Positions 26,180 to 41,241 of a stretch of DNA of 64,000 nt are shown piece by piece. A program made the translations under genes and the position numbers. Source of the stretch: Methanobrevibacter sp. YE315 (GTDB lineage Archaea > Methanobacteriota > Methanobacteria > Methanobacteriales > Methanobacteriaceae). Location of the stretch: NCBI RefSeq assembly GCF_001548675.1, contig NZ_CP010834.1:2081501-2145500 (forward strand), written 5' to 3'. A model generated the notes under the pieces. That model was not told where the DNA came from, did no database searches, and saw nothing but the letters and a program-made list of their open reading frames with translations. Numbering within the stretch: position 1 is the first letter of the stretch; each line of letters opens with the position of its first letter.

Positions 26180-29100
26180 CTATGGGCTGTTGTTTTTAAC
26201 TGTCGCACTACCAGTGAAGCTAACACTTTTATTTCCAGATAATTTTTTAGCATATAAAGTGTTGTAAGTCACTGAAGACTTAGTATTTTTCAAATCAACA
26301 GAATATTTACCTGTAGTATTTACAGTGTTATCCTTGATAGTTGCAACACCGGCAACAACTTTAATACCAATAGTTTCTATACCAAATTCCTCCCAAATGG
26401 ATTCATTACCAATATTAGAACCTTTAGCATTAATATTACAACTATATACAGCTAATTTAGATGCTCTTGAAGCAATACCTGTTGTGTAATTACCCTTAAG
26501 ATCAATATTATTTCCGGAAACCTTGCTTTCAACATCACCAAGGGACATACCGAAAGTGGAGTAAGCTTCAGCATAAATAATATTGTCTATGTAATCGGCT
26601 TTAACATCAGCACCGTTCATACCTGAATAGATACCATAAGCGGAAGTGACACCATAGATATTTAATGTATTGCCACTGATTACACCGGTAGCAGGACCTT
26701 CAACATCAATACCATCTGCATAATAAACATCAGAGACGATATCCAAATTATTATTGGTAATTGTGAAATCATCACCTGAAATTATAATACCATAAATGTA
26801 GGTATGGCCATTGGCTGCAATATCGTTGTTTGAAATCCTAGCATTAGCAGAATTCTTAAAGTCTACAGCATAGATGGTATCATAACTACCGCAAACACCC
26901 TTATAGTTAACGGTGATTAAATTAGCATCGAATTGGATATCATCGGAGTCTTGCACTACAACACCTTCAGAAACAGGGAAGCTTACCCAATTACCAGATC
27001 CTTCAGGAATTTCAGCCCAAGGAACATAACAGGAAACCAACTTAGCTGTTATGGTGTTGCCACTAACAGTTGCTTTTTTAGCATTGGAAATTAAAACCGC
27101 ATTATTTATAGCAGTACCTTTAGTAGCACCAACATACTTAACATTGTTCTTAAGCATGTTCAATTTTTTAACACCTTCAATAGCAATAGCATATGCATCC
27201 TTATCCTTATTTCCAGTGAGTTTAACAACATTACGTGAAACTGCCATATTTCTACCGGAAACAGCAATACCTACACCAGGGCCAGTGATTTTATTATATG
27301 CCAAATTAGCATTACCTGAAACGACTTTAATACCAACGGTTTCAATTCCGAACTCTTCCCAAATGGACTCATTACCAACTTCAGAGGAAGTCATGGTAAT
27401 CTCATTATACTTAGCAGTCAACTTATTAACTTTAGAAGCAATACCAGTAGTATAATTAGCTTTAAGAATAATCTCGTTGTTTAAGATAGTGCTTTCAACA
27501 TCACCAAGACTCATACCGAAAGCAGAATAAGCTTCAGCATAAATTTTGTTTTGAGTATAATTTGCTTTAACGTCAGCACCATTCATACCTGAATAGATAC
27601 CATAAGCAGAAGTGACACCATAAACATTAATAGCATTATTCTCAACTACACCAGTAGCAGGACCTTCAATATCAATACCGTTAGCATAATACACATCAGA
27701 CTCGGAATCAATATTATTACCGGTAACATTGAAATTGTCACCGGAAATGATTAAGCCGTAAATGTAGGAGTGACCTTTAGCATCAATATTATTACCAGAA
27801 ATCACAACATTATCAGAATTCTTGAAATCAACAGCGTAAATAGTATCATAACTACCGCAAACATTAATATATTTAATATTAATTATGTTAGAGTCAAATA
27901 CAAGATTATCAGAATCTGATACTACAACACCTTCAGAAACAGGGAAACTTACCCAATTACCAGATCCAGACGGAATTTCAGCCCAAGGAACATAACAGGA
28001 AACCAAATCAGCCTTGATAGTGTTGCCACTAACAGTTGCTTTTTTAGCATTGGAAATTAAAACCGCATTGTTAATACCAGTACCTTCAGTAGCACCAACA
28101 TACCTAACATTATTTCTAAGCATGTTCAATTTGGTTACTCCATCAACAACAATAGCATAAGCATCTTTATCCTTATTAGCGGTTAATCTGATTACATTAC
28201 GTGAAACCGCCATGCTTTTACCGGAAACAGCAATACCTACACCAGGGCCAGTGATTTTATTATATGCCAAATTAGCATTTCCAGAAACGACTTTAATACC
28301 AACGGTTTCAATTCCGAACTCTTCCCAAATGGACTCATTACCAACTTCAGAGGAAGTCATGGTAATCTCATTATACTTAGCAGTCAACTTATTAACTTTA
28401 GAAGCAATACCAGTAGTATAATTAGCTTTAAGAACGATATCATTGTTTAAGATAGTGCTTTCAACATCACCAAGACTCATACCGAAAGCAGAATAAGCTT
28501 CAGCATTGATGACATTGTCAGTATAGGTAACCTTAACGTCAGCACCATTCATACCAGAGTAAATGCCATAAGCGGAAGTGACAGCGCAAGCTTTGATTGC
28601 ATTAAGCTCAATTACACCAGTGGCAGGACCTTCAATATCAATACCATTAGCATAATACACATCAGACTCGGAATCGATATTATTGCCGGTAACATTGAAA
28701 TTGTCACCGGAAATGATTAAGCCGTAAATGTAGGAGTGACCTTTAGCATCAATAGTATTACCAGAAATCACAACATTGTCAGAATTCTTGAAATCAACAG
28801 CGTAAATAGTATCATAACTACCGCAAACATTATTATATTTAATATTAATTATGTTAGAGTCAAATACAAGATTATCAGAATCTGATACTACAACACCTTC
28901 AGAAACAGGGAAACTTACCCAATTACCAGATCCAGACGGAATTTCAGCCCAAGGAACATAACAGGAAACCAAATCAGCCTTGATAGTGTTGCCACTAACA
29001 GTTGCTTTTTTAGCATTGGAAATTAAAACCGCATTGTTAATACCAGTACCTTCAGTAGCACCAACATACCTAACATTATTTCTAAGCATGTTCAATTTGG

Positions 29101-30592
29101 TTACTCCATCAACAACAATAGCATAAGCATCTTTATCCTTATTAGCGGTTAATCTGATTACATTACGTGAAACCGCCATGCTTTTACCGGAAACAGCAAT
29201 ACCTACACCAGGGCCAGTGATTTTATTATATGCCAAATTAGCATTTCCAGAAACGACTTTAATACCAACGGTTTCAATTCCGAACTCTTCCCAAATGGAC
29301 TCATTACCAACTTCAGAGGAAGTCATGGTAATCTCATTATACTTAGCAGTCAACTTATTAACTTTAGAAGCAATACCAGTAGTATAATTAGCTTTAAGAA
29401 CGATATCATTGTTTAAGATAGTGCTTTCAACATCACCAAGACTCATACCGAAAGCAGAATAAGCTTCAGCATAAATTTTGTTTTCATTATAATTTGCTTT
29501 AACAGCAGCACCGTTCATACCTGAATAGATACCATAAGCGGAAGTGACACCATAAACATTAATGGCATTATTCTCAACTACACCGGTAGCAGGACCTTCA
29601 ATATCAATACCATTAGCATAATACACATCAGACTCTGAATCAATATTATTGCCTGTTATATTGAAGTTATCACCGGAAATAATTAAACCGTAAATGTAGG
29701 AGTGACCTTTAGCATCAATATTATTACCAGAAATCACGGCATTATCAGAATTCTTGAAATCTACAGCATAGATTGTATCATAAGATCCACAAATGTCTGT
29801 ATAAGTAACATTTACATTATTATCCGCAAATTCAACATCATCTGAAGAATCCACAACAATACCTTCAGAAACAGGGAACATCACCCAATTACTGGAACCC
29901 GGCGGAATTTCCATCCAAGGGACATAACTAGAAACTAATTTTAAATTAAATTTGTTTCCATTGATTTGTGCACCGCTGGAATTATAAACACGAATTCCAT
30001 TATTAATACCAGCACCTTGGGTTGTACCGACATAATTAATTTCATTATTAATAAGTTTTATTCCTTTTGAGGAGTCTGCATCTATTGCATAACCATAAGA
30101 ATCAGTTATAGCCTTAAAATTAATAATTGTATTTTCTATTTGAACATCAGATGCATCTAAAATGGAAATAGCGTATTCACCATTATTTTGATTAATAGTA
30201 AAATCAGTGATGATTACATCATCAGATTCAATATCAATAGCAATATTTTCAATTGTAGCATTATTACCGACGAATTTTATTGGACGGTCAACCACAATTG
30301 TATCAACACCAACGCCGGAAATATCTCCTTTAAAAGTCAATTCATTTGAAGTGACATTTGATAACAATGATCCTGTACTATCGAAATAGTTGTAAAAGGT
30401 ATCATTAGTTACGACATTGGCACTATTTACACTTACTACCTGATTATCATCAATAGCAAGAGTTTCAACATCCATTACTCCATCATCTAAAGCAATGACA
30501 TCTGTATTATCATCAGCAGCAAAAGAAGCGCTCAATGACAACATCAAAACACAAAGCATGATGAATGGAATAATAAAACCTTTTGCCTTAAT
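26180..30592 (-). CDS. Adhesin-like beta-helix protein (ALP3) with 966-bp repeats; probable ATT start
   Basis: Secreted protein of about 1470 aa consisting of one long right-handed beta-helix. After the signal peptide comes the TNDTFYNYFD cap also found in ALP1, then four 322-aa units, each with a YVPW.EIP motif and a (V/I)CGSYDTIYAVDF motif, and a short end (residues ending VKNNSP) like the ends of ALP1 helix blocks. There is no Ig-like tail and no anchor. The first ATG in frame (30559) has no SD and would give a signal peptide without its basic region. A GAGGTG SD at 30603-30598 is followed five bases later by ATT (30592), which restores a basic n-region (IKAKGFIIPF). I therefore place the start at this near-cognate codon; that choice is inference. 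Units 2 and 3 are almost identical DNA. Confidence 0.88.
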   Translation of the reverse strand: MKAKGFIIPFIMLCVLMLSLSASFAADDNTDVIALDDGVMDVETLAIDDNQVVSVNSANVVTNDTFYNYFDSTGSLLSNVTSNELTFKGDISGVGVDTIVVDRPIKFVGNNATIENIAIDIESDDVIITDFTINQNNGEYAISILDASDVQIENTIINFKAITDSYGYAIDADSSKGIKLINNEINYVGTTQGAGINNGIRVYNSSGAQINGNKFNLKLVSSYVPWMEIPPGSSNWVMFPVSEGIVVDSSDDVEFADNNVNVTYTDICGSYDTIYAVDFKNSDNAVISGNNIDAKGHSYIYGLIISGDNFNITGNNIDSESDVYYANGIDIEGPATGVVENNAINVYGVTSAYGIYSGMNGAAVKANYNENKIYAEAYSAFGMSLGDVESTILNNDIVLKANYTTGIASKVNKLTAKYNEITMTSSEVGNESIWEEFGIETVGIKVVSGNANLAYNKITGPGVGIAVSGKSMAVSRNVIRLTANKDKDAYAIVVDGVTKLNMLRNNVRYVGATEGTGINNAVLISNAKKATVSGNTIKADLVSCYVPWAEIPSGSGNWVSFPVSEGVVVSDSDNLVFDSNIINIKYNNVCGSYDTIYAVDFKNSDNVVISGNTIDAKGHSYIYGLIISGDNFNVTGNNIDSESDVYYANGIDIEGPATGVIELNAIKACAVTSAYGIYSGMNGADVKVTYTDNVINAEAYSAFGMSLGDVESTILNNDIVLKANYTTGIASKVNKLTAKYNEITMTSSEVGNESIWEEFGIETVGIKVVSGNANLAYNKITGPGVGIAVSGKSMAVSRNVIRLTANKDKDAYAIVVDGVTKLNMLRNNVRYVGATEGTGINNAVLISNAKKATVSGNTIKADLVSCYVPWAEIPSGSGNWVSFPVSEGVVVSDSDNLVFDSNIINIKYINVCGSYDTIYAVDFKNSDNVVISGNNIDAKGHSYIYGLIISGDNFNVTGNNIDSESDVYYANGIDIEGPATGVVENNAINVYGVTSAYGIYSGMNGADVKANYTQNKIYAEAYSAFGMSLGDVESTILNNEIILKANYTTGIASKVNKLTAKYNEITMTSSEVGNESIWEEFGIETVGIKVVSGNANLAYNKITGPGVGIAVSGRNMAVSRNVVKLTGNKDKDAYAIAIEGVKKLNMLKNNVKYVGATKGTAINNAVLISNAKKATVSGNTITAKLVSCYVPWAEIPEGSGNWVSFPVSEGVVVQDSDDIQFDANLITVNYKGVCGSYDTIYAVDFKNSANARISNNDIAANGHTYIYGIIISGDDFTITNNNLDIVSDVYYADGIDVEGPATGVISGNTLNIYGVTSAYGIYSGMNGADVKADYIDNIIYAEAYSTFGMSLGDVESKVSGNNIDLKGNYTTGIASRASKLAVYSCNINAKGSNIGNESIWEEFGIETIGIKVVAGVATIKDNTVNTTGKYSVDLKNTKSSVTYNTLYAKKLSGNKSVSFTGSATVKNNSP
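26270..30130 (-). repeat. Four tandem 966-bp units within ALP3
   Basis: The landmark GGAACATAAC (GGGACATAAC in the last) occurs at 27021, 27987, 28953 and 29919, exactly 966 bp apart each time. The stretches 28081-28505 and 29047-29471 read identically by eye, while the outer units are more diverged. Outer boundaries are approximate. Confidence 0.9.
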
Positions 30593-30847: not shown

Positions 30848-33800
30848 TTATTTAACAACGATTTTATTAGTCACTTGTGTGCCCTTCCATTTTGTAATGA
30901 TTTTGTAGGTGCCTGCAGTATTGAATTTAGCAGTGTATGTTACATAACCATTACTGTCTGTCTTAGCAGTAGAGGATACTCCATTAACAACAAATGTGAT
31001 TACTTTGCCTGCACCAACATATTTTCCATCAGTGCCAACAATACGCACCTTATGTGTTACAGCAGATCCTACACTTGCGGATAAATCCTTGCTACCCTCA
31101 ATCAATGGTTTTACAGTAATTGTCTTAATAGCAGTTGCCACATTATAATTGTTTTGGCCATTGGTGTAGATTTTTATCGAATACACACCATTTGTAACAG
31201 AACTTGGCAAGTAGATATAACCATTTTTATCAGAAACAAGAGAATGCCAATTTTTACCAATTTTAACATCTACTGCTTTATTTTTAATAACAACACCATT
31301 TGAATATTTTATCATGGCTAAAATACCACCAGGCCCAACATAATCAAAAATACTTATTATAACACCTGTGCCTGAAATTACAGACAATTTGGAAGTGGTT
31401 TCAGCATCTTTATAATAAGGCACCTGTTTGACACTTGCGACAACATCATACTCACCTAAATCCAATGCGTTTGTCACATCATAACCAAAAGTAGCCAAAC
31501 CATCTTTATTGGTTGTAGCAGAACCCATAAGAGTCAATCTGCCTACGGAATTTTTCCTGTTAAATTCGACAGTAGCACCTTTAATCGGATTTCCTAATTC
31601 ATCTTTTACAGTTGCAGTGAATTTGGCAGTTTCACCTTGGAATCCTGAAAGTGCAGGAACGGATACGACAAGATTTCCTTTGACTATTGTGGATAAAATG
31701 TCAAATGTAGTAGTTTTGTAATTATTTTTAGTAAATACTCCAGTAAATGTATAAGTAGCAGGAATGTAAGATTCGTCAAATTTATAATCGAAATTAGCTA
31801 CACCATATCTGACTTTTGTATTGGTTATCAAATTACCTTCAATATCATAAACTTTTAGGAATCCACCATTTGCTTGACTACCAAAAGTTACCTCAAAATT
31901 GCCTGTTCCCAAATATGGAACTCTGACATTATTGGTTGTTGGATTGACAACATATTTGTAATTACCAGAGACATTATTGTTTTTAGCATTATTTACAGCT
32001 TTGTCCCCGATTCCTTTTTCAGAATCCAAAAGATTATTTGAAATTACATTATTAACAGCAATAGTGTTTTGAAGTACTGCATATCCTTTTTTAGAATAAA
32101 CTTCATTATCTTCTATGTAGTTATTGCAAGAATTTGATTTGAGATGAATTCCAGCATTTCCAGTGCCGATAGAATCCAGAACAGTGATTGTTAAATCTCT
32201 ACCATCACCATTTGAATTAATCTTATTTGATATAATCCTATTGTTGTTACCATTGCAGAATATGACAGCATAGGTTTGTCTTCCGTTTGCATTAACGACA
32301 TTGTTGGATACTATATTATTGTCAGACATATATCCTTCAATACCGTAAACAGCCTGTCCTTTTATAATGACTGTATTATTATCGATTGTAGAGTTGCTGC
32401 AGGTTTCTAAGTAGATTCCATATACGACAATACCATTATCATCAATTACATTATTTTTGATAATTGTATTCCATGATTCATGACCTACAATAATACCTTC
32501 CTGACAATATGAAGTACAATTGATAGTTATCTTGTTACCGTCAAAGACTGTGTTGGTTGCACCTTGGCCTTCTGGAGCGCTGTGTCCAGTATTATATCCT
32601 AAAACACCCATACCATAAATATAATTATCCTTACCGCTTACGAAAACATTATTGTTGGATAATGTGTTGTTATGGGAGTTAAAGTATACGTCAATTCCAA
32701 CCAAGGAATTAGTTGAAGATGTTGGACTGTATTTTTTAGCCAATTTGGAAGTCACTTTAACATCATTGCCAGAAACATTGTTGTTTGATGAGTATAATAA
32801 TAAAATTCCGTATGTTCTATAAATTTCTGAAACGACATGTGCAGTTCCCATATTATAAGCTTTTCCATCAATACAAAGCTCTCCACCATCTACACAGTAA
32901 GATTTACCATCGATTACAAGCTCATTACCATCAATACAATATCTGGTACCGTCAATGACAATTTCATTGCCGTCAATACAATAAGATTTACCATCAATAG
33001 TTATCTCATTACCATCAATACAGTATCTTTTACCATCGATTACAAGCTCATTACCATCAATACAATATCTAGTGCCCCCGATTACAATCTCATTGCCGTC
33101 AATACAATAAGATTTACCGTCAATAGTTATCTCATTACCATCAATACAGTATCTTTTACCGTCTATAACAACTTCATTACCGTCAATGCATACTTCAGGC
33201 CTAAAGCTATAAACTTCCCCGGTACCACTGGTGGTAATTGTGTTGTTTGCAAAATTACAATCCTCGGAAGCATATGAAAGTAATGTATAAGTTAAATAAT
33301 CACCGTCAGAGCTAAGCTTATTATTAAATACATCCACAAAGGTTGATTCCAAGATATAAATCGCATAAGCCGCTTTTGAATCTTTTACTGAAATATCATT
33401 ATTAACTATTCTGACACCCGGAGCCTGATTTACATAGATACCCCAAGCATTTACCCTATTGGTAGCGTCATTAACTATTTTCAAGTTTTCAATCAAAACA
33501 TTTCCGGAAGTCACCTTAAAGGTGGAATTTGAGAACAATGCATTTTTCTTGTTACTTGTGATTTTGACAGCTTTGTTCACAAGGATGATTTTGTTTTGGA
33601 AATTGCCTCTGAAATCTAAAATATCCCCATCTTTTACCTCGGAAGTCAAACCACCGTTAGCATCGATATATTTAGCATAATTACTGGCAGTGATAACAAA
33701 TGTATTTCCGTTGAAAATGTAACTTGGTTTTGAACCATCATAAACTCCAGCCGGCAAACTGATTAATCCATTGCCGATGATGGTATTGTCCTTAGGACCG

Positions 33801-35176
33801 ATTGTACATGTGTCAGCCTGAACACCACTTACATCTATTGCATATTTATTTCCTGTTTTGATTGTGTTTCCAATAACTGTAACATAGGAAGGCATTCTTT
33901 TTGAACTTAGCTTTTCAACTAAGACTCCGACACCGCTGACTGAAGTAATATTGTTTTTTGTAACATAAAGACCAGCCACTTCCATTTTCTGGTTGATACC
34001 GGAACCATATTCTGTGACAATGACATTATTTTTGATAGTAACATTAGCACCTGGAGCAAAAATACCTCTACCGTCACCGGTTATTGTAACTTTATTATTG
34101 TTTATAATGGTATTGTCAGTACCTGAAATTCCAGCACCTGTATTAATGACTTTAGAGTTGATGATTTCATTACCAACAATCTGTGACTCATAACTACCTA
34201 CAATACCAAATTCTCCACCGGTTACCACATTAAGATTATTGTAATCAGCACCTGTGAGATTAACAATTGTATTGTAAAATATTTTATTAGCAGTACCATC
34301 GGTTGATATTCCTCTATAAGCACCGATTACAGTATTGTATTTAATTGTATTCCTATCACCCATAACCTGAATTCCATAACACCATGATGTAGGGATTACG
34401 TTAATGTGGACTGTGTTTCTCATAATGGTATTGTAATTTGAATTTCCACCCATTGGGGAAGTACCAAAGTTTGATAAATAAATACCGTTTGCATCGTCAG
34501 CTTCAACATTATTGCTTATCAAATTATTGTGGTGAGAACCTGTAACAAGCAATGGAGTAGTTGACCTGGATCCATGACCATAAGTCACCCCATATGCAGT
34601 CAACTCATTGTTTGTTACGTTATTGTAATTGGAGTTGTTGGCTAAACAAATACAATATGCGGCTTCTCCTGTATTTTTAATTACACAATTGCTTATTACA
34701 CAGTTTGAAGCTGAATTTAAAAATATTCCTACAGCCCTTTGACCGTTATTCTGAATATTCAAATTGGATACTGTACTTCCTGAAGCTCCACTAAGCAGAG
34801 TAATCTTTGAATTTTTTAAATTGGATGAGACTCCAATGATATTTAGAGACTTATCAAAAATAAAGTTGCAATCGGAAAAAGCACCACTTAATTTAATAGT
34901 ATCTCCAGGATTTACACCTTCTCTTATAAAATTACCTTCATTATCGAAATTACTTGCATAATTGCTTGAACTGACCGTGTAAGTTTTCGGAGCAGACAAG
35001 ACCACCTCATCCGAACTTTGTTCTAAAACGTTATCGTTATTGTCAGATATCTCCAACGTATCTGAAATAGAATTATCACTACTTAATGTCGTATTTATAT
35101 CATCAGCAGCGCTGACTGCACCAATAGATAATAATATAAGTAGCAATAAAACAAAAATCTTAATCTTTTTGCTCAT
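30848..35176 (-). CDS. Adhesin-like protein (ALP4): beta-helix, Cys 14-mer repeat, Ig-like tail
   Basis: Secreted surface protein of 1442 aa. The signal peptide is MSKKIKIFVLLLL onwards, cut near GAVSAADD. Residues about 70-1070 are NosD-like right-handed beta-helix repeats rich in NN.I..N. These are interrupted at residues 663-774 by eight 14-aa repeats of the type CIDGNEITIDGKSY. Residues about 1090-1442 are Ig-like domains of a different kind (Big_1-like: GNPIKGATVEFN, TNKDGLATF, TDSNGYVTY), probably stalk domains. Start: ATG at 35176 lies 5 nt after a GAGGT SD; an in-frame ATG at 35188 precedes the SD. The gene follows the CobN-like gene on the same strand but has its own 130-nt leader region. 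Ligand unknown. Confidence 0.92.
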   Translation of the reverse strand: MSKKIKIFVLLLLILLSIGAVSAADDINTTLSSDNSISDTLEISDNNDNVLEQSSDEVVLSAPKTYTVSSSNYASNFDNEGNFIREGVNPGDTIKLSGAFSDCNFIFDKSLNIIGVSSNLKNSKITLLSGASGSTVSNLNIQNNGQRAVGIFLNSASNCVISNCVIKNTGEAAYCICLANNSNYNNVTNNELTAYGVTYGHGSRSTTPLLVTGSHHNNLISNNVEADDANGIYLSNFGTSPMGGNSNYNTIMRNTVHINVIPTSWCYGIQVMGDRNTIKYNTVIGAYRGISTDGTANKIFYNTIVNLTGADYNNLNVVTGGEFGIVGSYESQIVGNEIINSKVINTGAGISGTDNTIINNNKVTITGDGRGIFAPGANVTIKNNVIVTEYGSGINQKMEVAGLYVTKNNITSVSGVGVLVEKLSSKRMPSYVTVIGNTIKTGNKYAIDVSGVQADTCTIGPKDNTIIGNGLISLPAGVYDGSKPSYIFNGNTFVITASNYAKYIDANGGLTSEVKDGDILDFRGNFQNKIILVNKAVKITSNKKNALFSNSTFKVTSGNVLIENLKIVNDATNRVNAWGIYVNQAPGVRIVNNDISVKDSKAAYAIYILESTFVDVFNNKLSSDGDYLTYTLLSYASEDCNFANNTITTSGTGEVYSFRPEVCIDGNEVVIDGKRYCIDGNEITIDGKSYCIDGNEIVIGGTRYCIDGNELVIDGKRYCIDGNEITIDGKSYCIDGNEIVIDGTRYCIDGNELVIDGKSYCVDGGELCIDGKAYNMGTAHVVSEIYRTYGILLLYSSNNNVSGNDVKVTSKLAKKYSPTSSTNSLVGIDVYFNSHNNTLSNNNVFVSGKDNYIYGMGVLGYNTGHSAPEGQGATNTVFDGNKITINCTSYCQEGIIVGHESWNTIIKNNVIDDNGIVVYGIYLETCSNSTIDNNTVIIKGQAVYGIEGYMSDNNIVSNNVVNANGRQTYAVIFCNGNNNRIISNKINSNGDGRDLTITVLDSIGTGNAGIHLKSNSCNNYIEDNEVYSKKGYAVLQNTIAVNNVISNNLLDSEKGIGDKAVNNAKNNNVSGNYKYVVNPTTNNVRVPYLGTGNFEVTFGSQANGGFLKVYDIEGNLITNTKVRYGVANFDYKFDESYIPATYTFTGVFTKNNYKTTTFDILSTIVKGNLVVSVPALSGFQGETAKFTATVKDELGNPIKGATVEFNRKNSVGRLTLMGSATTNKDGLATFGYDVTNALDLGEYDVVASVKQVPYYKDAETTSKLSVISGTGVIISIFDYVGPGGILAMIKYSNGVVIKNKAVDVKIGKNWHSLVSDKNGYIYLPSSVTNGVYSIKIYTNGQNNYNVATAIKTITVKPLIEGSKDLSASVGSAVTHKVRIVGTDGKYVGAGKVITFVVNGVSSTAKTDSNGYVTYTAKFNTAGTYKIITKWKGTQVTNKIVVK
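32855..33190 (-). repeat. Eight 42-bp units encoding a Cys-containing 14-mer
   Basis: Exactly 336 bp in frame inside ALP4. Units read CIDGNE, then VV/IT/IV/LV, then I(D/G)G, then KRY/KSY/TRY; the last is CVDGGELCIDGKAY. Units 1-3 and 4-6 repeat the same order of variants (KRY, KSY, TRY), so a 126-bp three-unit block was itself duplicated. Confidence 0.95.
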
Positions 35177-35309
35177 ATTATACCTCATCAAATTGAATTT
35201 ATAAAAATATTTTAAAGTTTAATTAAAATATACTTTAAAAATTTTCTAATATATTATTAGTTTTGATAAAATACAATATTTAAAAATTTCTAAAAAAAGT
35301 AAAAAATAT

Positions 35310-35334
35310 ATGATGACTAACTAGTAATCATCAT
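35310..35334 (-). terminator. Hairpin overlapping the stop of the CobN-like gene
   Basis: A 7-bp stem ATGATGA / TCATCAT spans the stop codon at 35321-35323 and is followed on the minus strand by TATATTTTTTACTTTTTTT. Probable transcription end. Confidence 0.45.
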
Positions 35335-38300
35335 AATCATCATCGTCAGTTTTAGCATATCCAACCAAGAAAATTGCAATTAGAATGATAACTGCAATAA
35401 TTACGAATATAGGCATGCTTGACTCTGTTGGAGCTGCAGCGGATTTGGATGCTGATTTTTGTGAAAGTTCATAGGCTTTAGCACTGGCACTAGCACCAGA
35501 TGAATCCTGTGAAGTTTGAGGGTCTGCAACTTTTGCATCACCTGTTTCACCTTGATCTGCTCCGAAAGCAGTTTTGCCCCCTTCACTTGAACCGTCAGAT
35601 TGTTCCTGAGTGGTTCCATTAACAAGTATCTCTTCGGTTGCATCATCATTTCCATTGTCATTGGCTTCACCTTGACTGTCCCCATTATCATCCATAACGA
35701 ATAGTGGGTTAGTATTTGTAGCCTGAGCAAGAATTTCGGCGAATTTTTGCTTTTGAGCTGCAGTCAAAGAGCTCATTTGAATAAGCTGTGAATTGAAAGC
35801 CAAATTCTTACATGTGTGGTGACAACATGCAACACCATAGTCAATAACATTATCTATATAGGTGTCTACTAATTTCTGAACCCTAGACGCATCAATGTCA
35901 CAGAGTCCTTGTTGAGCCATATAAATTAACCATGCAGTGGAAGATTGTGCACCTGCCGCTGTGGAAGAACCTGTCACTCCGCTGGCGATACCAGTTATTA
36001 CATCCGCCAATTGATTACCTAACTCGCTGTTTAGCTTTTCACCACTTAAAACTTGGGTAACATACATATTCTGATATCTGGCTGCAAGAGAATTACTACC
36101 TGCAGCAGTACCGACTAATGAATTGAAATAATTAGGATTCAACAACATGCTACGAATCTCAAATTCGACTTCTTCATTATAATTTCTTGAAACGTAATTG
36201 TTCTTATTCCTAATATCGACGAATGCAGTGTCTGGTTTATCCTTACCGGATTTTTCCTTCAAGATATTAGCTGCATTATACAATCCACCAAACCAGTCAT
36301 AGTAATCATCAGAGTCAAATAATCTCCATGAACTGTCAAAGTTTTGGGAAATCAAATCAACATTATCAAGTAAATGTTTATAGTTTTCCTTTTGCTTATT
36401 GATAACAATATTGCCTTTTTCATCCAATGTCCAGGAGTAGGATACCTTATTTAGATAGATATCTGATGCAACTTCATTTACAGTGGATATGTTCCAGTCT
36501 GCAGTATTTGGAATGAAAGTGGACATACCAGTTCCTTCCAATACATTACCCGGAAGACCAAACAACCTATCCAACATTGGGTTTTCTGCATAATGTTTTA
36601 TGACATAATTGTTAGTTTCATCTTCGCCGGTAGCATTTAAAGCTAAGTTGACTGAAGTCAACATCCAAGTAATCCAATCCTTATTATTTGTAACCATACT
36701 AGCAAATACGTCAACTCTAGGCCTGTTTACAACACTGCCATTATTCAATTTTACAGTTAGATTTTCTAATGGAAGCTGTTCAACACCTAGAACTTTTCCG
36801 TTATCCGCCCATACTGGTTTACAACCTAATAAATACATGAATTCAGCAACACCAATACCTTCTGTTCTGGAGATTTCTGTACCCCATAAGATTAATGAAG
36901 TCAATTCCGGCCATTTGCCGTGTTTTTCAAAGTAATCTGCTAAAAGCAAATCTACAATTTTAACAGCAGATTCATAAGCCGCATGAGATGGCATCCTTGT
37001 TGGGTCAGAAGCATAACCGTCATAACCAACAGGTATAGAATCACCATAAGACGGGTCAGCGAACAATCCTGCTTTTACATAACGTCCGGATAATGCGAGC
37101 AAAATTGCATTCCATTCATTATTTCTTTGAATGTTTTCAATAATGCTTCGACAATATACTGTTGAATTATATAAAGCAGTGCCTTCTTTAATATCCAATT
37201 CTTTATTTAATTCTTCTACACTAGTTCCATTAACAAGACGGACTGCATAATCTTTCAAGAAGGATTTAATAGCTCTAACTTCATTATCATATTTAAGATT
37301 GCCCTGCAAGTCATCATAGAATTTCAAGCCTTTTAAATCAGGATATAAGAATTCAGTTAATTGATCATAAATCCTAGTTTGGGAAGTAACAATTGTAACG
37401 ACCTCTTCAGAGAGTTCATAACCGGATAAGATTTTACCTATTGTATGGAGACCATACGTATTGAAATCGTCTTCCATAGCATCTAAATAAATGTGTAGTT
37501 CATCTATCCAATCGGAAAAAGATTCATTTTCGGAAAGGTTTCTGAAACCTAACTCCGGAGCTAATTTTAAAATCTTATCCCTGTAAGATTCCGCATTTGA
37601 AGTTACATTAAGACTTAACTGTTCTTTATAGTAATTAATATAATTTTTCAATACAGTATAATTACCGTATAATTCAGATGAAACCATTGCTGGAGTCATG
37701 TGGGTAATTACTAAAGCAGAACTTCTGTCTCTTGCAACCATTGCTTCACCGGGGTTGGATACAATATAAGGATATACAGTAGGGATTAAAGACAATTCAA
37801 AAGTCCAATCTCCAGGGAATGCACCTAAGTTTACACCAGGCAACCACTCCACTGTTCCGTGAGTTCCCATACTAACAATAGCGTTCATATTAGCGGTTTT
37901 TTCCATCCACTCGTAAAATGTCACATATTGCTGGTGTGGAGGAATGGTTAAACTGTGATAATCCTTAACTTCTTCCCAACCTCTACTTGGCTGGAAGGTT
38001 ATGAATACATTACCGAACCAGATTCCAGGGATTACAATATACTTATCTTTATAAACCATTGCAGGGCCTAGGTTATCCCCCCAATAGCTAATCATTTCGT
38101 TATATAATTCATCTCTAACATCAGCAGTCAATTGTTCAAATTCTTTAAGAGAAATCAATTGATGATGTTTCATTAAATAATCCCAATTATCTTCAACATA
38201 TTTTTCAAGCAATCCTGATGCCCAAGACCCTTTGTTGTTCATGTCAAAAATTAAATCGGTTAAATTTTGTAATGTTATTTTATTAATTGTAGTTCCGTTT

Positions 38301-40234
38301 ATCTTAAATCCTTCATTTGAATTTATAATAAACTCATTGTAATCATCAGAATATTCTACAGTTCCGCCAATATCATATCCCTGAGCATATAACTTTAAAA
38401 GCAAATCAAAAGTACTGCTAAATACATCCAAATATGAAGCACCGATTTCTGCCTTACCCGGCGGATAATTATACAACATTATGGAAATATTCTTATCAGA
38501 ATTATTTAAATCATGCAAATCGGCCCATTTACAATTTAATTGCACCATCTTATCGACACCTTCCTGGATAACATGAGTTTTACCATAGACGTCAACATAA
38601 GTTAATGCAACTTGGCCAAAAACACCCTCAAAACTTGGATAAGTAACCATGAATGTCCATTCAGCTTGAGGACCTAAATCACTATTGTAACTGTATTCTG
38701 AAATCTCAACAATACCTTTCAATACATGCAAATCAATGTCAGTTAAATCCGGTTCTGCAGTACCATTAGCGTAATCTAAAGACCAGCTGCATAATGAGTT
38801 TATCGCAGATATGCCTACTGTTGAAATATTATTAATCTTATTTATAATCTCTGACATAGGAGGCTGAGTTCCTGTTTTAAATACGTTAAAAGCAGGTCTG
38901 CCTTTAGCTTCATAGCCTCTAATTAATGCTTCGCTTACTTCTTCACCACCATAGTAAGAAGCTATGGCTATGAATGGCTTATCAGGATGGAACATTTCAA
39001 TATAATCGTGCTCAAATGTTTTAAATAAACCGGTTGGATCCAATTCCTCTGTTAACCAGTCCACATAATTTTCTGTCATCCAATTTAGACTACCATCAGA
39101 ACTATGAGTGTAACCGGGATTTTCATGAATCCATGAATTAATCAATGTTCCGTTAGGTGTTAAACTGTACAAACCTAAATCCGGATGGTAAAATCCACAT
39201 TCAGGAGACATTAAAGGAGCATTATTCTCATCTAAAGTCGGATCAGAATACTTTTGAGGATTAATCAAATAGCAGACATAAGCTAAATAATTCTTCATGT
39301 TACTTATTAGAATATCAGACTCTGCAATATCACGGGCTTGGAAATAAGAACCTATGTACGTATTTTCAATAGTGTCAAAGGTATTGTTTTTTGCAGAAGC
39401 ACCGACAACATGCAAACCGGTATTGTCTAAAATCTGCTTTGAATAAACACTGAATGTATATGCGACATTATACTCGGCATTGGCTGGTGACCTTGCTAAC
39501 AATTCCTTTAAATATTTGGCTGTCAGAACGCTGTATGCGGATTCAGAGAACATGTCAATGTGCATAAACTTTGCATATTCAACTAACCAGGATCTAGATG
39601 TATCAAAATCAGTTGTACTGATAAAAGCAACTCTTCTGGACATATTCATTAATACATCAACCTTCTCATTGTGGGAATTATAATCTACCAATAGCAATAT
39701 GTCGGGAACAAACATTACATCGTCAATATTAACAGTTCCGCTTTTATGAGTAAAATCAATCTCATCCAATTTGATTGGTTCATAAGTTAAATAGCTAACC
39801 TCTAAATAATATTTGCTTGATCCCAAATTTTTAATTGCAACATTACCCTTTGAATCGGTTTTATGTGTTGAAATCAATTTATTTGAAGAGTCGAATACCT
39901 TGACTGTAGCTCCGGCCAGATCAAATCCGTCTTCATCCCAAGTTTTGCCTGTTTCGTTATAAGAGTCAGTTACATGAACATTAATTACATTACTGCCTGC
40001 TGTTAAATTCCCCTCATCTGATTGAGAGCCTATAACTTTTGGAATTAGATGATTCTGCGTCAATCCATCCTGTTCTATTGGAGTACCCACTACATCAGAT
40101 ATTGTTTTACTATCTCCTGCAAATACTCCGTTTACAGAAAATATAAGCAATATAGATATAATTAATGCGAATAATAACCTTTTATTAATTTTTACCGTAT
40201 TTTCACCTCCTTTCAAATTAATCATGTGAAACAT
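35321..40234 (-). CDS. Extracytoplasmic CobN/Mg-chelatase-H-like protein with C-terminal anchor
   Basis: A 1637-aa member of the CobN/ChlH large-subunit chelatase family, which normally inserts Co or Mg into tetrapyrroles. An N-terminal signal peptide (KRLLFALIISILLIF, cut near VFAGD), a carboxypeptidase-regulatory-like beta domain (about residues 75-130) and a C-terminal membrane helix (about 1606-1628) with a KTDDDDYDDY tail place the catalytic domain outside the cytoplasm. Family motifs are present: MGTHGTVEWLPG near residue 790, YPYIVSNPGEAMVARDRSSA, and WGTEISRTEGIGVAEF near 1115. A Ser/Gly/Gln-rich spacer precedes the anchor. The substrate is unknown. Known cytoplasmic members need ATPase partners, which cannot act outside, so removal of metal from a tetrapyrrole, as proposed for HmuS-type homologues, is an alternative. 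The start is uncertain: a strong GGAGGTGA lies downstream of the ATG and points to an ACG at 40198. Confidence 0.85.
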   Translation of the reverse strand: MFHMINLKGGENTVKINKRLLFALIISILLIFSVNGVFAGDSKTISDVVGTPIEQDGLTQNHLIPKVIGSQSDEGNLTAGSNVINVHVTDSYNETGKTWDEDGFDLAGATVKVFDSSNKLISTHKTDSKGNVAIKNLGSSKYYLEVSYLTYEPIKLDEIDFTHKSGTVNIDDVMFVPDILLLVDYNSHNEKVDVLMNMSRRVAFISTTDFDTSRSWLVEYAKFMHIDMFSESAYSVLTAKYLKELLARSPANAEYNVAYTFSVYSKQILDNTGLHVVGASAKNNTFDTIENTYIGSYFQARDIAESDILISNMKNYLAYVCYLINPQKYSDPTLDENNAPLMSPECGFYHPDLGLYSLTPNGTLINSWIHENPGYTHSSDGSLNWMTENYVDWLTEELDPTGLFKTFEHDYIEMFHPDKPFIAIASYYGGEEVSEALIRGYEAKGRPAFNVFKTGTQPPMSEIINKINNISTVGISAINSLCSWSLDYANGTAEPDLTDIDLHVLKGIVEISEYSYNSDLGPQAEWTFMVTYPSFEGVFGQVALTYVDVYGKTHVIQEGVDKMVQLNCKWADLHDLNNSDKNISIMLYNYPPGKAEIGASYLDVFSSTFDLLLKLYAQGYDIGGTVEYSDDYNEFIINSNEGFKINGTTINKITLQNLTDLIFDMNNKGSWASGLLEKYVEDNWDYLMKHHQLISLKEFEQLTADVRDELYNEMISYWGDNLGPAMVYKDKYIVIPGIWFGNVFITFQPSRGWEEVKDYHSLTIPPHQQYVTFYEWMEKTANMNAIVSMGTHGTVEWLPGVNLGAFPGDWTFELSLIPTVYPYIVSNPGEAMVARDRSSALVITHMTPAMVSSELYGNYTVLKNYINYYKEQLSLNVTSNAESYRDKILKLAPELGFRNLSENESFSDWIDELHIYLDAMEDDFNTYGLHTIGKILSGYELSEEVVTIVTSQTRIYDQLTEFLYPDLKGLKFYDDLQGNLKYDNEVRAIKSFLKDYAVRLVNGTSVEELNKELDIKEGTALYNSTVYCRSIIENIQRNNEWNAILLALSGRYVKAGLFADPSYGDSIPVGYDGYASDPTRMPSHAAYESAVKIVDLLLADYFEKHGKWPELTSLILWGTEISRTEGIGVAEFMYLLGCKPVWADNGKVLGVEQLPLENLTVKLNNGSVVNRPRVDVFASMVTNNKDWITWMLTSVNLALNATGEDETNNYVIKHYAENPMLDRLFGLPGNVLEGTGMSTFIPNTADWNISTVNEVASDIYLNKVSYSWTLDEKGNIVINKQKENYKHLLDNVDLISQNFDSSWRLFDSDDYYDWFGGLYNAANILKEKSGKDKPDTAFVDIRNKNNYVSRNYNEEVEFEIRSMLLNPNYFNSLVGTAAGSNSLAARYQNMYVTQVLSGEKLNSELGNQLADVITGIASGVTGSSTAAGAQSSTAWLIYMAQQGLCDIDASRVQKLVDTYIDNVIDYGVACCHHTCKNLAFNSQLIQMSSLTAAQKQKFAEILAQATNTNPLFVMDDNGDSQGEANDNGNDDATEEILVNGTTQEQSDGSSEGGKTAFGADQGETGDAKVADPQTSQDSSGASASAKAYELSQKSASKSAAAPTESSMPIFVIIAVIILIAIFLVGYAKTDDDDYDDY

Positions 40235-40386: not shown

Positions 40387-40395
40387 GTGAGATTG

Positions 40396-41241
40396 ATGCG
40401 CAAGATTAGTATTGGTATGATTATTTTATCAATAATCATTATAGGAATGCTTATCCCGGTAGGCTTTTCAGGTCAAGTCGATCCGGTTGTAATAACCTAC
40501 GGCGAGACCACACATGCAAATCATGAATACAAAGCCACTGTAGATAATTTCTTTAAAACTCAATCAAATGCAGATTTAAGCAAAGCAAACTCAAAAATAA
40601 TAACTGCTGATGACGTGAACAAAATTTCAAGCTCAATAACTGGAAAGACTTACAGTTCAAGCCAAATTTTCTCCTCAGCATTAGTTGACTTAAACGATAA
40701 TGACAAACTGGAAGTTAGTGTTGACAAATCAACAATCACAACAATAACTGGGGATATGTACCTATCAGCATTAAAATCCTCTGGAATTACAAGCGGACAC
40801 GTATATGTAACAAGCCCTGTTGTAGCAACCGGTGAATCAGCTTTAGCCGGAATCATGAATTCATATGAAGTTGCTACCAATGTTGAAATTCCAGATACCG
40901 TGAAAGAAGCAGCTAACAATGAAATTTATACTGAAGCTGAAATCGTTGAAAATTCAAATGTTAGCGCAGATGACTTATCCAAATTAGTGGATGACGTGAA
41001 AGAAACAGTACAAAAAGAAAACGTTACAGACCACACAACAATTGTAAACATAATTTACAATTACACTGTTGTGAACAATATAAATATCACAAACAATGAT
41101 ATTGAAAACCTCGCAAGCTCCATTGAACAAATACAAAACGTTCAAGGAGACATCAACAATTATGAAACAGAAGTAAACAATGTTTTAAACAGCAGCGAGG
41201 TTAACTCTGCAAAAGGACTTTTAGATGGATTATTCGGATAA
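40396..41241 (+). CDS. DUF1002-family secreted protein
   Basis: 281-aa protein resembling the DUF1002 (YpuA-like) family, function unknown. The N-terminal hydrophobic segment (ISIGMIILSIIIIGMLI) is a signal peptide or single anchor. The mature part has the family-like region VVITYGETTHANHEYK, an ITADDVNKISSSITGKTYS stretch and a VTSPVVATGESALAGIM stretch, and ends in a helical Asn/Glu-rich tail. The start is ATG at 40396, five bases after GAGGTGA; an in-frame GTG at 40387 lies within that SD. It diverges from the chelatase-like gene, so a shared extracytoplasmic role is possible but unproven. A T-run after the stop (41255-41262) may end transcription. Confidence 0.8.
   Translation: MRKISIGMIILSIIIIGMLIPVGFSGQVDPVVITYGETTHANHEYKATVDNFFKTQSNADLSKANSKIITADDVNKISSSITGKTYSSSQIFSSALVDLNDNDKLEVSVDKSTITTITGDMYLSALKSSGITSGHVYVTSPVVATGESALAGIMNSYEVATNVEIPDTVKEAANNEIYTEAEIVENSNVSADDLSKLVDDVKETVQKENVTDHTTIVNIIYNYTVVNNINITNNDIENLASSIEQIQNVQGDINNYETEVNNVLNSSEVNSAKGLLDGLFG

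Follow-up and report, generated by a model that had tools for sequence, protein, structure and literature searches.

A predicted surface-anchored protein of the CobN/ChlH/HmuS chelatase family in Methanobrevibacter sp. YE315 and other Methanobacteriales

HmuS of the Bacteroidota converts heme to protoporphyrin IX in an NADH-dependent reaction, with a heme site formed by Met79 and His254 between the head and the neck of the protein. Other members of the class I chelatase family are CobN (PDB 7c6o, 9fpc, 9uk9), a cytoplasmic protein acting with CobS and CobT, and ChlH/BchH (PDB 4zhj, 6ysg), which is cytoplasmic or stromal and needs ChlI and ChlD. The family's enzymes insert or remove the metals of vitamin B12, chlorophyll and heme. 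Here we describe a secreted member of this family encoded in a window of 64,000 nucleotides (nt) from Methanobrevibacter sp. YE315 (NZ_CP010834.1, positions 2,081,501 to 2,145,500). The gene occupies an ATG open reading frame bounded exactly by window positions 35321 and 40234 on the minus strand (1637 amino acids (aa); probable coding sequence 35321-40198). Coordinates below refer to the window, residue numbers to this reading frame, and features of the window lie on the minus strand unless stated otherwise. In our interpretation, to which we give a probability of roughly one half, the protein is an extracytoplasmic class I chelatase of the Methanobacteriales which binds, and possibly demetallates, an external tetrapyrrole, a corrinoid being more likely than heme.

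A surface setting beside adhesins has already been published for such a protein, and HmuS establishes that a chelatase-family enzyme can lie outside the cytoplasm. In the passages of PMC2812497 (2010) devoted to it, mru2047 of M. ruminantium is a 'BchH' with N- and C-terminal transmembrane helices, chosen as a surface vaccine peptide and located beside the adhesin-like mru2048 and mru2049, with which its locus tag is consecutive. These passages propose no function, family analysis or partner. It is probably the same locus as ours, orthology being judged from the description and not from sequence. The relevant part of PMC3087415 lists such genes of M. thermautotrophicus and M. marburgensis as CobN or guesses at nickel chelatases, and the HmuS paper (PMC12583661, 2025), in the section concerned, calls the role of archaeal HmuS/CobN/ChlH homologues unclear. 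As far as the open-access literature shows, what is new here is a clade with a CobN-type cleft and, for methanogens, a link to ExbB and DUF2149; two features described below, an anchor motif common to several protein families and a non-AUG start, also appear to be new, no literature search having been made for either.

The membership of the family claimed in the original prediction is clear. The motifs GTHGTVEWLPG, YPYIVSNPGEA and WGTEISRTEG are all present, and the Pfam model PF02514 (CobN-Mg_chel) matches aa 312-1392 with an E-value of 3.1e-164 (549 bits, cut-off 24.5). The Pfam family name and matches to NCBIfam equivalog models would fit a ChlH or a normal CobN acting in the cytoplasm in cobalamin synthesis, as the database names have it. 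However, all nine matching NCBIfam models (CobN or BchH/ChlH) score far under their cut-offs, for instance 408.6 against 1619 and 330.3 against 822 for CobN and 354.9 against 829 for ChlH/BchH, so that the names CobN and ChlH are over-calls for genes of this type. Moreover, hydropathy shows two membrane segments and no others: an N-terminal signal-like segment peaking near aa 20, which corresponds to the signal peptide (M)VKINKRLLFALIISILLIFSVNGVFA (40118-40198), and a C-terminal anchor at aa 1607-1626 (35357-35416). The sequence thus has the signals for export and anchoring that a surface protein needs, in agreement with the predicted topology. The partners of the cytoplasmic enzymes were also not found, as had been supposed: at an E-value of 0.001 neither CobT nor a BchI/ChlI-type ATPase had a match in the genome (2.27 Mb, one contig, 99.96% complete), although the same ATPase model was positive in 11 of 14 control genomes. 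The genome encodes CbiD of anaerobic B12 synthesis, and an aerobic-type cobaltochelatase is therefore not needed. On topology, partners and NCBIfam scores we rejected a cytoplasmic CobN or ChlH, which is very improbable.

Structure prediction gave a confident model for aa 335-1534, with a predicted local distance difference test score (pLDDT) of 90 and a predicted template modelling score (pTM) of 0.90 (AlphaFold). Its top Foldseek matches were HmuS 9p4s (3.9e-55) and CobN 7c6o (1.6e-54). In VIA-align, CobN 7c6o was closest (Z 37.5, 962 aligned residues), followed by ChlH (Z 36-37) and HmuS (Z 30.1 and 29.7, with 1027 and 1022 aligned residues). The HmuS alignment reaches model residue 1172 while those of CobN and ChlH stop at 1131-1144, and this extra tail contains a CCHHTC motif. 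The model of aa 81-335 (pLDDT 94.4) falls into two parts: its residues 1-99 resemble transthyretin/CnaB domains (Z 10-12) and its residues 97-253 the head of CobN 7c6o (Z 10.7, 122 aligned). No chelatase domain of the six is therefore missing, and a transthyretin-like domain precedes them at the N-terminus. The chelatase part comprises the head or domain I at aa 177-333 (39236-39706; CobN 7c6o residues 4-133) and the neck and body, domains II-VI, at aa 342-1465 (35840-39211). In these models the class I fold is complete, including the macrocycle cleft. The N-terminal domain at aa 81-179 (39698-39994) had been named carboxypeptidase-regulatory-like; its Pfam score is just below threshold (30.9 against 32.3 bits), yet the structure matches indicate that it is real.

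PF02514 genes are widespread: 118 of 151 genomes of the phylum set carry them, as do 105 of the 138 family genomes, where the count among the 78 good ones is 66; the genome of the window has exactly one. In a tree of 59 rows the window protein belongs to a 22-row clade (support 100), here called clade A, which reaches two other families of Methanobacteriales and is separate from the group of CobN, BchH and cytoplasmic homologues as well as from other secreted clades, the archaeal homologues being split into several of the latter. One member of clade A, sec_G143, apparently comes from a genetically tractable Methanothermobacter group. HmuS lies outside clade A. Nineteen orthologues share 60-80% identity with the window protein, and the ratio of nonsynonymous to synonymous substitution (dN/dS) against five of them is 0.08-0.16 (five pairs; dS near saturation); for these reasons the gene is not a chance reading frame. 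In 17 of 18 loci the nearest named relatives are Methanobrevibacter. A contig titled Acholeplasmatales (L053) bears a Methanobrevibacter chelatase-adhesin locus and is probably mis-binned.

Loss of active-site residues, which would have spoken against the original prediction, was looked for by alignment. Five cleft residues are each kept in 22 of 22 clade A rows: His792 of GTHG, equivalent to HmuS His538 (37859-37861), Glu796 and Glu830, equivalent to ChlH Glu625 and Glu660 (37847-37849 and 37745-37747; variant structures exist for both ChlH residues), Glu1120 of WGTE (36875-36877) and Asp1310 (36305-36307). The cleft is under strong purifying selection. The CCHHTC motif (aa 1470-1475, 35810-35827) is kept in 21 of 22 rows; it aligns with a C-terminal cysteine pair of HmuS and has no counterpart in the aligned cytoplasmic homologues.

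This conservation bears on an alternative in which the protein is a non-catalytic tetrapyrrole-binding or structural surface protein, its chelatase fold serving as a scaffold or as a corrinoid or heme trap displayed with beta-helix adhesins and performing no metal chemistry. Large beta-helix surface proteins do adjoin the gene, 15 of 16 clade A loci have no energising partner next to the chelatase, and several secreted paralogues lack cleft residues. Against this, a scaffold alone would not need five cleft residues invariant across the order, and we regard the alternative as rather unlikely.

The residue at position 1310 bears on the substrate. According to the available passages of PMC12583661, His538 and His1209 are the facing ligands in HmuS. 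In the window protein the position of His1209 is taken by Asp1310, as in the aligned CobN proteins (7c6o, Kovacikia, Halococcus and Haloarcula, the Halococcus homologue sitting inside a B12 gene cluster); the Sinorhizobium CobN row is incomplete and uninformative here. CobN also has the His and Glu of the cleft. At position 1310, BchH, cyanobacterial and plant ChlH, HmuS and, with the exception of cyt_G138, the cytoplasmic homologues of archaea all have His. Clade A thus keeps a complete cleft minus the second histidine of HmuS, and Asp1310 suggests, on few sequences, a cleft of the corrin type.

It might be thought that the protein is simply an archaeal HmuS which strips iron from external heme; the original prediction pointed to HmuS-type homologues. 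HmuS has the same fold, is described as extracytoplasmic and membrane-anchored (PDB 9d26, 9p4s; passages of PMC12583661; our comparator was Aureibacter, L108), as the window protein is by hydropathy only, and shares the GTHG histidine and the cysteine pair. A related clade adjoins FeoB, and ExbB and DUF2149 are common with hmu. So far the comparison stands. The HmuS motif LSLDHxxEFMGG with His1209 was not found in clade A, however, where all 22 rows have Asp. The Met-rich insertion of HmuS domain IV was not found in the window protein either (185 aa with 1 Met, against 417 aa with 11 Met in Aureibacter HmuS), and no hmuTUV genes are adjacent. For these reasons heme is, by residue type only, a less likely substrate than a corrinoid. 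The window protein further differs from HmuS in having a transthyretin-like domain added at its N-terminus, the anchor motif K-x-Y-E-x-S and a beta-helix protein as neighbour, and in lacking an adjacent ExbB module. Orthology with HmuS was rejected on Asp1310 and the missing insertion, and we consider a heme dechelatase unlikely. Two-piece profile matches had also hinted at the Met-rich insertion in the FeoB-linked clade; this was dropped, as the sequences show a CobN-type Asp motif and no insert. HmuT and DUF2162 could not be equated (hhalign probability 0.1; HmuT has no Pfam match, and only U and V are common by family).

Methanogens make and shed coenzyme F430. The substrate could then be F430, something derived from its decay, or siroheme, from dead methanogens, the more so as sequence does not fix the metal or the macrocycle. 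The CobN-type Asp points to corrin and nothing speaks directly for these compounds, so that they appear improbable.

If the external corrinoid reading is correct, a metallo-tetrapyrrole would be bound in the cleft on the outer side of the membrane, and the metal would be taken out or exchanged, or the macrocycle held for uptake. By analogy with HmuS in the periplasm, for which no AAA+ motor is named, this might proceed without CobS/T or ChlI/D. The CCHHTC motif could hand on the metal or form disulphides. Candidates for partners at the wall are two proteins encoded next to the gene, the beta-helix surface protein and the DUF1002 protein. Dominant rumen methanogens would then compete at their surface for corrinoids or metal, and an enzyme class thought to need cytoplasmic ATPase partners would work at the cell surface.

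A source of energy may be sought in the neighbours of related genes. HmuS is reported with ExbB and DUF2149 in hmu operons of Bacteroidota (passages of PMC10434189), and the operon of Aureibacter has HmuS together with ExbB, DUF2149 and an unnamed membrane protein. In the methanogens, ExbB and DUF2149 were found beside other secreted chelatases. Among 44 chelatase genes in 40 regions, a full DUF2162-ExbB-DUF2149 set lies within 3 kb of 12, namely 11 of 28 genes outside clade A and one of 16 within it (L092). Other secreted paralogues adjoin FeoB (L070, L102), CbiM (L081, L083, L084) or, at L065 and L069, a ModA-like binding protein; all of these, like the ExbB module, are transport genes. No hmu-type operon with adjacent ExbB and DUF2149 was seen at the window locus. 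The window gene is not itself part of an ExbB operon: the genome has two DUF2162-ExbB-DUF2149 sets, at 994 kb and 2.21 Mb, both distant from the chelatase gene at 2.12 Mb. Energy coupling is therefore proposed by analogy with the paralogues, the two sets being candidate partners in trans. DUF2149 had no match in the plasmid collection.

Several points weigh against the proposed function. Catalysis and substrate are what we infer by computation. The Asp/His rule at position 1310 depends on few and related sequences, a grouping of HmuS with clade A is not rejected (approximately unbiased test, p 0.25), and the deep branches of the tree are unresolved. An ExbB module adjoins only the single clade A locus mentioned, and the neighbours of clade A genes included no metal transporter. 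Finally, the cleft is incomplete in several secreted paralogues (Glu796 replaced by Ala, or GTHG gone), which shows that the family tolerates non-catalytic forms.

The sets themselves have some further features. That at about 2.21 Mb (L107, 7504-14803) stands with CbiM, two small secreted proteins and a 1000-aa FmdE-domain surface protein bearing a K-x-Y-E-V-S anchor, and looks like an uptake or metal-handling machine. At about 994 kb (L105, 18030-19729) the next large surface protein downstream is of the papain family. In L083 (3542-19366) and L084 three tandem secreted chelatases lie between DUF2162-ExbB-DUF2149 and CbiM, the middle one without cleft motifs.

Ahead of its membrane anchor the window protein carries a K-x-Y-E-[VL]-S motif, of which YELS is encoded at 35462-35473. 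The core [YF]E[VLI] occurs within the last 75 residues of 60 of the 72 chelatases that have a C-terminal membrane segment. A profile covering the motif together with the linker, anchor and tail found carriers in all eight genomes searched, and in four genomes a carrier lies close to a DUF2149 gene. The anchor is not specific to chelatases: of ten carriers scanned, six were FmdE-domain proteins, and the others were one chelatase, one NosD-like protein, one with a weak beta-helix match and one DUF11 protein. It is our guess that the motif is recognised by the ExbB complex. A wider scheme, doubtful as a whole, would see in Methanobacteriales a set of surface machines that work without ATP. Anchored chelatases and FmdE-domain proteins, with K-x-Y-E-V-S in common, would be driven by the proton- or sodium-motive force via ExbB/DUF2149/DUF2162, the motif acting like a TonB box though there is no outer membrane. 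The window protein would be the corrinoid branch, taking from rumen cobamides either their cobalt or the corrinoid as a whole, with its output held low by a conserved non-AUG start.

The evidence for such a start is as follows. An ideal signal peptide reads from an ACG codon (40196-40198) located 4 nt past a perfect Shine-Dalgarno sequence, GGAGGTGA (40203-40210), which is kept across clade A. Translation of the window gene thus probably starts at ACG 40198-40196 and not at the ATG of the open reading frame. We surveyed 28 clade A genes with GG[AG]GGTGA, taking the codon 4 or 5 nt further on (window, L045-L062, L017, L019, L021, L024, L026, L030, L031, L043 and L063). The codon was ACG in 19, ATC in 3, ATT in 3 and ATA, CTG and ATG in one each, that is, non-AUG in 27 of 28. 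In nine of these genes the stretch from the preceding in-frame stop to the hydrophobic core contains none of the standard start codons ATG, GTG and TTG. The conservation of the non-AUG codon suggests a conserved weak or regulated initiation. Near-cognate starts are not unique to chelatases, since some other secreted genes in these regions look alike. Of a further 23 Shine-Dalgarno sites, 12 lacked a fitting open reading frame, 6 were followed by ATG, GTG or TTG and 5 by ATT, ATA or CTG, at least four of these five preceding signal-like segments. ATT or ATA stands behind GGAGGTGA in other secreted proteins at L081 12379 and 15466, L083 8656, L099 1777 and L107 9827-12829, the last judged from its translation.

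The adhesins which the original prediction placed next to the gene need some qualification: a large surface protein does adjoin, but by Pfam it is a right-handed beta-helix (NosD-like) protein (30848-35191, downstream). Among the 18 Methanobrevibacter orthologue loci, L050 and L051 break off before this point; in each of the 16 others a homologue lies downstream of the chelatase, and in L052 the pair is present twice. Across the genera of the family a beta-helix homologue lies within 3 kb on the same strand at 13 of 14 clade A genes but at none of the 18 chelatase genes outside the clade (Fisher p 4e-8, which is too small as the loci are related). The two clade A loci of other families have no such neighbour. 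A second large adhesin-like repeat protein (26180-30559) lies beyond, and homologues follow in relatives too. On the other side a secreted DUF1002 protein is encoded divergently (40387-41241, plus strand). It is syntenic within Methanobrevibacter, being found in 14 of 14 orthologue loci with upstream sequence, and is present in three of five further genus regions (L076, L077 and L097, not L079 or L099). Within the beta-helix neighbour, short tandem repeats with CIDGNE-like units at 32837-33277 form a possible variable stretch.

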